Assembly (NCBI RefSeq): GCF_964204645.1
Contig: NC_134029.1
Location: 5,279,001 to 5,343,000 of the forward strand
Source of the DNA: Tubulanus polymorphus
Lineage: Eukaryota > Nemertea > Palaeonemertea > Tubulaniformes > Tubulanidae
Direction: 5' to 3'
Length of the DNA: 64,000 nt
A program made the translations under genes and the position numbers. The notes below the pieces were generated by a model. It worked only from the letters and a program-made list of their open reading frames with translations. It searched no databases and was not told where the DNA came from. This document shows, one piece after another, positions 29,385-63,902 of the stretch; positions within the stretch are counted from its first letter, which is position 1; each line of letters opens with the position of its first letter.

Positions 29385-29636
29385 TATAAAAGAGCGGAAC
29401 GGGGTGGCGTGCACGAACACTATAAACACGCCTGCTCGCTCACAATACACGGCGCGCTATCAGTCGGCACATCTACTCACTGATAAATCTCACCGATGTT
29501 TATCTCCCGTCCGCGACTATGATACGCCGGATTATCGAACTGGATAATCCACGACAATTTCAAATAGGATAATAACATAGAAAAAAATACGGCGCCGAGA
29601 CGGACAGCGGATAGCGATGTTTACGGGCAAATTAAG
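29385..29636 (+). promoter_or_regulatory. Putative RGM promoter and first exon
   Basis: A GC-rich block holds TATAAAAG at 29385-29392 and TATAAAC at 29421-29427. A TCAGTC initiator-like motif lies at 29460-29465. The sequence runs to ATTAAG|GTAAGG, a strong 5' splice site after 29636. An ATG at 29617 opens a short frame (MFTGKL plus 2 nt). That frame joins in phase to an acceptor at 32737/32738 (TTTCTACAG|G), leading into the RGM signal-peptide exon. The transcription start and this splice are inferred. Confidence 0.5.
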
Positions 29637-32600
29637 GTAAGGTTGAGCGCGGTCGTTTAGGTCCTCCCACATTTCACAAACGACTTGGCGATTATAATAC
29701 AGCCAAAACCGGCAGGGAGCCCGCCACTATCCGCATTCATTTTATACCTGTTTCATACCAAATTTAGGAAATGTATTTAACAAATTATGAACACTCGATT
29801 TCACCTTTTCAGTTTTATTTCCGTTCTATCGGCGTTTTATACACAGCCTGTTTGCGCGTCTCGTCAAATTTACACTACGACATATAGACTTTAAAATATA
29901 TACATAACCCGCTAAACTGATACTGCCATATGTTTTGATAATAATCACCTCAAATTTCTCGATCGATTTGAACGATAATATTTTCCGCGAGACAAGTTGT
30001 TGTTTTTAGTGTAATGTAGAATTTTCTGAATTTCCACTGCTGTCTGAACCAATATACCGATTTTATGAATTTCATATTCTGATCGAAAAAATTATATATT
30101 ACATATATAGGCAAAGTGAAGTGATATTATTGATCTTTAGTATGAAACGACTTTTATGAAATCAGATACAGTAGAACTCGCTTAATTCGGATTTTTCAAA
30201 CCGGATTTTCACTTAATTCGGTCGAAATATTTGGTCATTAAACCTGGAACCGTGTTAACTATTATTCATAATTTGGAATTTACTTAATTCGGAGAAATCT
30301 GGGCAGTCCATAGTCATCCGAATTAAGTGAGTTCTACTGTATATCAAATAGATAAACAGTACAAAATGAGAAAGAGACAAACCAACGAAAAAACATGCAA
30401 ATGGATTGTCGCTACAGTGCCTGAAAAGATCAATTTTGAGTACAAACTTTATTACAAACGCCTAAGCCATCATTGCGATCAGCGTTGTTGCCGTGGCTTA
30501 CCATAAGTGAATGAACTTCAGTTTCTTTTTTATCAACCTCGAATTTCCTTACGAAAACTGAATATGGTAATTAAACTTGTTCGAGATTTAGTTTTGTGAT
30601 CGAGTGTGTATAAGATATTTGTTTAGTCGAGTTGAAAGAAAAACGGAGCGCGTAAGAGACGGCCCGGTATAGGCATCTTCACATTTCGTTCAACAGGCAT
30701 AGAAAATATCATATATATATATATATGTTTTTTAAAAAAGTTTCGAAATTTTTTTGCGTCATCGCGCGGGTCACGACTGTGTCGCTCAGTGTTTTAAAAC
30801 CCTTTTCACCATGGATAGAATATTTTGAAATGAATATTTATCATCCATTTTGTGAATTTGGCCTTGTAACATAAGGCGGACTATATACGCTATCGCTCCG
30901 GATGCGTATGGGTCTGAAGCGTTTGAAATGCGAAAAAGCGTTATATACGCTTTCTACGTTTTTCTAGCGTTGGTTGTCAAACTAGAGGACTCTCGAGTTG
31001 TTGGGTATTGCGTTAAAATCGACCGGCTCGTCATACAGGATATATACACCGTGTACTTTAGTAGCCATATCATATATTCGCTGCAGCTTTAATAGTCGGC
31101 GATGAGTTTAGATATCATTTCGACCCCGAGTCAAATCGTTTTTAATTGCTGTCGTTAATTAATCGGTGTTGAATTCTTGGAACCTTATACGTTCAATACT
31201 ATAAATGGGGCTAATGAACGGAATAAATCCCAGAAAAATGATGGGATAGATTTCGGCTAGTCCGAATATATACTCATCCGATCTTACGGATTACCCTAAT
31301 AGTCATTTCGGGAACAGCGGTCAGGTTAGAAGACTATTCGGCATTGGGTCTCTGAAACGAGTCCTTTTGGACGTTACTGAAGCCCGTAATACGGTCAGGT
31401 ACTAGATTTCGGTATAGGGCCTCATGAGGTATTTTTTCTATTCAAATATATGGTAGAATGAATCATAGAAACGTAAGCGAATTATTATGTTCCAGCTAGA
31501 CCCTCCCCGACTTCGCTTGTTGGTATGCTCGCTTGACAGATATAGCCCCCTCTTGATTATTTTCCAGCCCATTTGAAACGAGATGGTTTGCAGCGGTGAT
31601 GTGGCATGTTAACCCAAATGCGTGAGAAATTAATGACACCAACACATGTTCAGCGCTTCACTATTCTTTCATGTTTTCACACGTTTTCATGTGTTCATGG
31701 TTCATATGTACATACTGCACATACATCGCCCATCGAACTGCTTTCATTTCAAAGATTCGATATTGCCGGTTTACACCGACTACGAGCGAACCGGAGTAGT
31801 CCGTGCAAGTTTCCAGTCCTTTGATTCTCAGCGTAAATGTGATTTTTGAAAATTCCAGATTTTAAGAAAATCTGGCTTCTGCGTTAAAGTTTTGACGGTA
31901 TCCCTATACTTGAAGAATTAATTGCCTATTTTGGCAGTGTATCGCGTGGGTGCGCCGATCGCGAAGATGCTCATACACGCTTTTTACGCTAGATGGCGCA
32001 TGGGTCGCATGGTTTTGCTACGTTCGCGCGAGGGCGGCTTTCGAGCAACCGGATTTGTTATTGAGTAAATCAAACTTACGAAGTAGAATTGATATACTTT
32101 TTGGGTCATTTTGGCTGAGAATTTTGGTTCGTGTGAGGCAACCCGGATTTTCGACAGTAGCAGACCATGATTCTCACGACTTAAGCTTCATTCTTGACGC
32201 ATAAAGACGATATATACATTGTATGGCCCAAGCGACAATTTGTTCTTTTCGAACGTTTAAAAATAGGCTTTCGTGATCTTTTTCATACGCTCTTAGTCGG
32301 CGGAAAATAGTTTTGCACAAAAACTTAGTGTTTTTTCTCACACCTCAATACATAGCTGTCAGTTTTAACACCTATAGCTTGAATGGCTGTTCGATGCGAA
32401 TAGGCCAGTGGAACGTTGCGAATGGTAGGCGTGTTTATAGCCGTACTACGCTCCGCCTGCGTACACACACGGCTATCTCTCAGTCAGTGTTGTAGTAGAA
32501 CTCGCCGTGAGTGTATCTCTCGACGAGAGGATTAGAGCCACATTTCGAAACCTATTCAAACCGGATTACGCGAATACAATGAACCGTTTTAAAGACAAAA

Positions 32601-63900: not shown

Positions 63901-63902
63901 AT
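51994..63902 (-). CDS. CHD1: Chromodomain-helicase-DNA-binding protein 1, 3' part, 19 exons
   Basis: This is an ATP-dependent nucleosome remodeller acting on transcribed chromatin. Exons: 63767-63902, 62944-63378, 62387-62536, 62154-62302, 61640-61826, 60979-61152, 59834-60066, 59401-59543, 59177-59312, 58945-59092, 58405-58515, 57959-58201, 57743-57871, 56963-57274, 56235-56368, 54847-55005, 53409-53504 (cassette), 52672-52932, 51994-52150; about 1,160 residues. In order: helicase lobe 1 end ([14 protein letters not shown]), lobe 2 with [14 protein letters not shown], motif [12 protein letters not shown] and motif [13 protein letters not shown]. Next are the bridge [12 protein letters not shown], an acidic/lysine linker with [17 protein letters not shown] ([31 protein letters not shown]) and lysine-rich exons. 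The C-terminal helical domain follows ([20 protein letters not shown]), then a Ser/His/Arg/Asp tail ending SDYSQRH. Chromodomains and helicase motifs I-III are off-window. CHD2 is the alternative name; invertebrates usually have one CHD1/2 gene. Confidence 0.96.
52341..52458. repeat. Dispersed MITE-like repeat, copy 1 (CHD1 intron)
   Basis: Ends CAGGACCCAGTTCC and, complemented, CAGGGCCCAGATCC are inverted. The body carries repeated GAGTTAACTC-type palindromic words. Related copies lie at 58795-58900 and 62658-62761, all in CHD1 introns. Confidence 0.65.
53192..53225. repeat. (ATT)n microsatellite
   Basis: About ten ATT units in a CHD1 intron, between the candidate cassette exon and the penultimate exon. 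Confidence 0.9.
53409..53504 (-). CDS. CHD1: Candidate CHD1 cassette exon
   Basis: On the minus strand TTTTTTCTCATTAG precedes a 96 nt open segment that ends TTCCAG|GTACGA. It begins with one nucleotide of a split codon and ends with two, exactly like its neighbours. It can therefore be included or skipped without a frameshift. The translation ([17 protein letters not shown], then [15 protein letters not shown]) has the same Asn/Arg/Gly/His character as the CHD1 tail. No other exon lies between 54847 and 52932. It may be constitutive or alternatively spliced. Confidence 0.7.
54537..54585. repeat. Short hairpin in CHD1 intron
   Basis: TAGCTTC...GAAGCTA with inner CCAGGT/ACCTG pairing gives a stem-loop of about 49 nt. 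It is probably a fragment of a palindromic repeat. Confidence 0.4.
58236..58320 (+). repeat. Dispersed repeat in CHD1 intron
   Basis: GGTTACCAGCAATGCTACTG, ATCCACCAGGT and GCCATCTGGCGGGATAG are shared with the RGM-intron copies at 37325 and 34434 (reverse). It lies just upstream (minus sense) of the lysine-rich CHD1 exon 57959-58201. Any open frame running from that exon into it is read-through of the intron. Confidence 0.6.
58795..58900. repeat. Dispersed MITE-like repeat, copy 2 (CHD1 intron)
   Basis: It shares GAGTTAA, TTAGTTCAT, TTCAATGA, GTTAACTC, AGAGTCAAATC and GGAACTGTGGA in order with the copy at 52341-52458. The ends are worn. Confidence 0.65.
62658..62761. repeat. Dispersed MITE-like repeat, copy 3 (CHD1 intron)
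   Basis: This is a more diverged member. CACAGTTATGAGTTAGA at one end and ACTAACTCGCGACTGCAGAACTG at the other match the family in inverted arrangement. Confidence 0.5.

Follow-up and report, generated by a model that had tools for sequence, protein, structure and literature searches.

A convergent RGM–CHD1 gene pair, each gene in a single detected copy, in a probable lophotrochozoan genome

The window analysed here is a 64,000-nucleotide stretch of DNA (C5:5,279,001–5,343,000) from a chromosome-scale genome assembly of 268 Mb in 77 contigs. The contig that contains it, C5, is 24.87 Mb long and represents 9.3% of the genome. The right-hand half of the window is occupied by two genes in tail-to-tail arrangement. 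RGM, a cell-guidance and BMP co-receptor gene, is located on the forward strand and is followed by CHD1, which encodes a chromatin remodeller, on the reverse strand. The 3' ends of the two genes face each other, and their stop codons are separated by 9,665 bp. The features of the locus are listed below in window coordinates, apart from the last one, which lies outside the window.

32835..32928, forward strand: RGM coding exon 1, with the start codon and a hydrophobic signal-like segment (by eye); donor GT at 32929
33306..33811, forward strand: RGM coding exon 2, with the RGM_N domain, the GDPH site and the beginning of RGM_C
33812..41620, forward strand: 7.8-kb intron of RGM, separating coding exons 2 and 3, splice sites read
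41621..42328, forward strand: RGM coding exon 3, with the remaining part of RGM_C, a hydrophobic C-terminal (GPI-type) tail by eye, and the stop codon TAG
42329..51993, no strand: interval between the stop codons, 9,665 bp, with small AT-rich and tandem repeats only and without a match to a protein family, tRNA or Rfam
51994..52150, reverse strand: probable last coding exon of CHD1, stop codon TGA, placed by position, splice site and charged composition, without a Pfam match
52671..57298, reverse strand: C-terminal part of CHD1, with CHD1-like_C at 56,924-57,298 and frames from there to 52,671 assigned by composition only
58339..60105, reverse strand: exons of the CHD1 DNA-binding region, with SANT-HL1 and CHD1/Hrp3 HTH
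60946..64000, reverse strand: CHD1 helicase and adjoining exons, with a family match for 62,854-63,471 and the remaining exons read by eye
L015:846-2380, reverse strand: SNF2 exon and two chromodomain exons of CHD1, within 2.4 kb of the window end

The RGM gene is composed of three coding exons spanning positions 32,835–42,328, which are joined by GT/AG splicing to encode a protein of 435 amino acids. The spliced translation has a hydrophobic N-terminus, a GDPH motif, which we take to be the autocleavage site, and a hydrophobic C-terminal tail, all three recognised by eye. The protein belongs to the RGM family, as it matches the Pfam profiles RGM_N with 48 bits (cut-off 24.2) and RGM_C with 93.3 and 171 bits in two exons (cut-off 27). 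Its closest relative among solved structures is RGMB (6z3m, E 5.9e-68). The first-pass annotation had placed the beginning of the locus at 29,617. We recognised no coding exon there, and the start codon of RGM lies at 32,835. The ratio of observed to expected CpG reaches 1.44–1.62 in window positions 28001–34000, which include the 5' end of RGM, versus 1.10 for the whole 84 kb, and this CpG-rich stretch may hold the RGM promoter. Upstream of RGM, between 3.2 and 32.8 kb, 92 of the 132 listed frames were scanned, and they matched thioredoxin-fold families, including calsequestrin, together with two weak matches to DUF443 and KH_BICC1. A thioredoxin-fold exon at 12992-13201 on the forward strand represents a protein disulfide isomerase-like gene, and two reverse-strand frames at 740-3172 match the xanthine/uracil (SLC23-type) permease family.

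The stop codon of CHD1 is at position 51,994, and the gene runs from there through the end of the window and about 10 kb beyond it. The end at 63,902 that had been given for CHD1 therefore lies inside the gene. Acidic frames resembling the CHD1 N-terminus reach about 74.4 kb in extended coordinates, approximately 10.5 kb past the window. The predicted protein contains two chromodomains, an SNF2 helicase, a SANT/HTH DNA-binding region and a CHD1-like C-terminal domain, which places it in the CHD1/2 subfamily. Among solved structures, the helicase exon is closest to CHD1 (9ear, 3.1e-66), as opposed to 4e-40 for CHD4. The last exon (51,994–52,150) and the low-complexity frames of the tail, which have no family match, were assigned by position, splice sites and composition. 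Searches of the genome with the RGM_C profile matched only the RGM gene of this locus, in two exons. Similarly, CHD1-like_C has a single match in the genome, and SANT-HL1 matches only the CHD1 gene of this locus. As far as the profile searches reach, the genome carries one RGM gene and one CHD1/2 gene. The single RGM gene speaks against a vertebrate source.

The interval between the stop codons was inspected for a third gene. A Pfam scan at E 0.01 covered 67 of the 70 frames of at least 45 codons in the region 42,329–52,300 and gave no match. These 67 include the frame that carries the last exon of CHD1, and the three omitted frames sit at the CHD1 end; the scan is blind to shorter exons and to genes of families outside Pfam. 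We therefore reject a recognisable gene in the gap, and within the limits of the Pfam scan the two genes are direct neighbours with facing 3' ends, as in the RGM-CHD pairs of vertebrates. The previous description of a complete forward-strand RGM gene directly before a reverse-strand CHD1 gene, with no gene between them, is borne out by the Pfam domains, the splicing and the gap scan. A known non-coding RNA in the gap was also rejected, since tRNA and Rfam scans of the whole window are empty. An RNA structure just 3' of the RGM stop codon was rejected as well: 197 of 200 shuffled sequences reach an equal or better fold, and the 300 nt that directly follow the stop codon are less stably folded than the shuffles (z +1.96). 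Poly(A)-signal hexamers are present in the interval on both strands; the forward strand has its first one at 44,007, and the hexamer closest downstream of CHD1 is at 51,620. CpG ratios along the 84 kb give no clear gene-body signal, and the values for the RGM coding sequence (1.80) and the CHD1 exons (1.51) are not usefully separated.

The same two gene families are neighbours in deuterostomes. The accessible text of PMC6370684, citing Severyn et al. 2009, describes human CHD2–RGMA and CHD1–RGMB as adjacent and convergent, in agreement with the arrangement that the first-pass annotation had given for the human genes. It ascribes the vertebrate RGM-CHD pairs to segmental duplication and names LIX1L beside HJV. 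In the available part of PMC10605842 (2023, Fig. S2), chd genes are listed as conserved neighbours of vertebrate RgmA and RgmB, with clustering also in the hemichordate Saccoglossus kowalevskii, and Rgm is linked to Dnajb5 in Ciona and several vertebrates; the location of chd in Ciona is not given there. Excerpts of other papers give the fish gene series slco3a1a, fam174b, chd2, rgma, lysmd4, nr2f2a (PMC7693511) and the position of MEF2A at 15q26.3 (PMC8447573). A coral map carries CHD1, and RGM is not named in the accessible portion (PMC3091320). The accessible part of PMC8851819 names neither RGM nor CHD, and that of PMC8902246 has no bearing on RGM–CHD linkage. We found no literature report of RGM–CHD linkage in a protostome among mainly open-access texts, and supplementary tables could already list the pair.

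The human pairs CHD1-RGMB (5q15) and CHD2-RGMA (15q26.1) resemble the locus described here in the adjacency and convergent orientation of both gene families. However, they are two paralogous copies that arose by duplication, whereas the present non-vertebrate genome has one detected copy of each gene. Saccoglossus kowalevskii is, like the source of this DNA, an invertebrate with a single-copy RGM gene clustered with a chd gene. Unlike it, Saccoglossus is a deuterostome, and the likeness concerns clustering, as orientation and gap are not stated in the available part of PMC10605842.

If 15,000–30,000 genes are assumed, the chance of finding CHD1 as the convergent 3' neighbour of RGM is 1.7e-5 to 3.3e-5. 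With chance adjacency at about 2–3 in 100,000, common descent is the sensible reading. Wider linkage was examined with six families from the human 15q26, 5q and 1q regions, with cited positions for MEF2A, LIX1L and the fish series. DUF1180, which we take to be FAM174, is located on C5 at 18.76 Mb, 13.4 Mb from RGM-CHD1. IQGAP, sought as RasGAP_C, is on C5 at 9.25 Mb. MEF2, sought as HJURP_C, is on C5 at 3.26 Mb, with a MADS/MEF2-type protein start recognised by eye a few kilobases upstream on the same strand. LIX1 is on C11, not C5. MCTP (sought as PRT_C) and POLR3G gave no match in the genome, which does not imply their absence. Three of the four matched families are thus on C5 (P about 0.003, given the share of C5 in the genome), or three of six if the two families without a match are counted as misses (P about 0.013); the P values serve as a guide only, because the markers were picked one after another. 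For comparison of gene density, C5 holds, among the matches listed, 6 of at least 127 RRM and 11 of at least 115 homeodomain matches. The linkage data fit an old linkage group in which local order was shuffled by 2–13 Mb and RGM and CHD1 were kept together. FAM174 adjoins chd2 in fish and is 13.4 Mb away here; therefore, the RGM-CHD1 pair has outlived its neighbouring linkage.

We estimate a probability of about 0.85 that the pair, as observed in its gene identities, order, orientation, gap, single detected copies and partial wider linkage, was inherited by descent rather than formed by chance. The tail-to-tail pair would be one inherited neighbourhood that was present in the common ancestor of this lineage and the deuterostomes. 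The vertebrate genome duplications would have copied it whole to give CHD1-RGMB and CHD2-RGMA, and in the present genome it would persist intact in the single-copy state. Some observations weigh against descent: LIX1, whose relative LIX1L is placed next to HJV in the accessible text of PMC6370684, is on C11, and the comparison involves one protostome genome and self-picked markers with few cited human positions. The examination of a single probable protostome genome also leaves room for an independent, chance origin of the pair in this lineage, which we regard as highly improbable in view of the odds for order and orientation and the partly common wider linkage group. The probability that the adjacency is an assembly error is smaller still and close to nil. 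The repeat check covered the interval itself. A join marked by N letters or by long repeats inside the interval was rejected, as there are no N letters anywhere in the window and the interval contains no repeats beyond an AT-rich palindrome and small tandem repeats. The contig is 24.9 Mb long and of chromosome scale, and an error would have had to recreate a known pair by mistake.

The proposal that the pair is older than the vertebrate genome duplications, made before this analysis, is supported by the single RGM and CHD1/2 genes in the same convergent order here and by the clustering reported for Saccoglossus in the available part of PMC10605842. The pre-vertebrate origin is sound and already in print. 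The probable spiralian case of RGM-CHD1 appears to be new. It would carry the pair back to the bilaterian ancestor, based on one probable lophotrochozoan and the published deuterostomes. In that event, the origin of the pair known from vertebrates and the hemichordate would move towards the bilaterian ancestor, and the pair would already have been old when the vertebrate duplications copied it.

Descent of the pair is compatible with several reasons for its retention. Our first choice, which is tentative and carries somewhat less than even odds, is regulatory. RGM would be a developmentally regulated gene with putative control elements in its flanking DNA, within the 9.7-kb interval and possibly within the introns of CHD1; breaks within this control DNA would be selected against, and CHD1 would be a bystander. 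Neither the CpG comparison nor the folding of the 3' flank of RGM gave a sign of special structure, which speaks against this proposal. Passive retention, which we place just below an even chance, is at least as likely as the regulatory kind. The pair would then have been inherited from the bilaterian ancestor and kept, adjacency without function, by a short gap in slowly rearranging genomes. The gap of merely 9,665 bp is a small target for breaks, and it yielded neither a known element nor an unusual structure. By contrast, three other families of the old linkage are 2–13 Mb away on C5, and vertebrates have retained the pair in two copies, with a hemichordate retaining it as well (accessible parts of PMC6370684 and PMC10605842); as evidence both points are weak, given the small number of markers. 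The genes could also be coupled at their 3' ends by convergent transcription, overlapping 3' UTRs or shared termination, and the tail-to-tail orientation common to this genome and both human pairs would agree with such coupling. We consider it unlikely, since nearly 10 kb separate the stop codons, the poly(A)-signal hexamers on both strands lie within the interval and imply no overlap, and the sequence past the RGM stop codon folds less stably than its shuffles. Both passive retention and 3'-end coupling compete with the regulatory step only.

In a genomic regulatory block, a target gene has enhancers that lie in or past a bystander gene, and all of these are part of one chromatin domain. Ancient conserved microsynteny and genomic regulatory blocks, in the accounts available, resemble the RGM-CHD1 locus in keeping two unrelated genes side by side over long times. 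They differ from it in their regulatory elements, chromatin domain and bystander effect, which are hypothetical at the present locus. We speculate that RGM-CHD1 might be a regulatory block that dates back to the bilaterian ancestor or further, with conserved RGM control DNA in the interval and the CHD1 introns, held through the protostome-deuterostome split and two genome duplications. This extended proposal, which may include a neighbouring, apparently TTC24-like TPR gene as a third original member, is possible and on balance rather doubtful. The single-copy locus offers a simple setting for studying whether the control DNA of RGM is tied to CHD1, and it adds a useful case to a conserved pair that is already known. 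The question is relevant to human microdeletions at 15q26.1 in which CHD2 and RGMA are lost together, which are known here from a reference title in PMC8447573.

The TPR gene is arranged head-to-head with CHD1 and occupies L016:4320-5033 and 5344-5682 (C5 from about 5,357,320 on) on the forward strand. Its Pfam matches above the cut-off are of TPR type only, and its first exon has no close solved structure. The gene looks to us like human TTC24, which lies beside IQGAP3 and MEF2D at 1q22; relatives of IQGAP3 and MEF2D are also on C5 here.

Two homeobox genes are located on C5 approximately 0.25 Mb from RGM-CHD1 and about 20 kb from each other (L014, C5:5588362-5588532, and L019, C5:5608620-5608787). 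We read them as Gsx-type and Cdx-type, and ParaHox genes would therefore be close to RGM-CHD1. Another contig, C6, contains ten homeobox matches among those listed, all on the forward strand, within 0.32 Mb (C6:5318228-5634747). Seven of the ten were read and are Hox-like in order, and the cluster is probably an intact spiralian Hox cluster. One of its genes makes a lophotrochozoan the most likely source of the DNA; a search for COX1 gave no match, so that the mitochondrial code was of no help in this placement. A C6 homeobox gene, L013, encodes a Lox5-like homeodomain followed by AKLNGP, a combination that we assume to be a lophotrochozoan signature.
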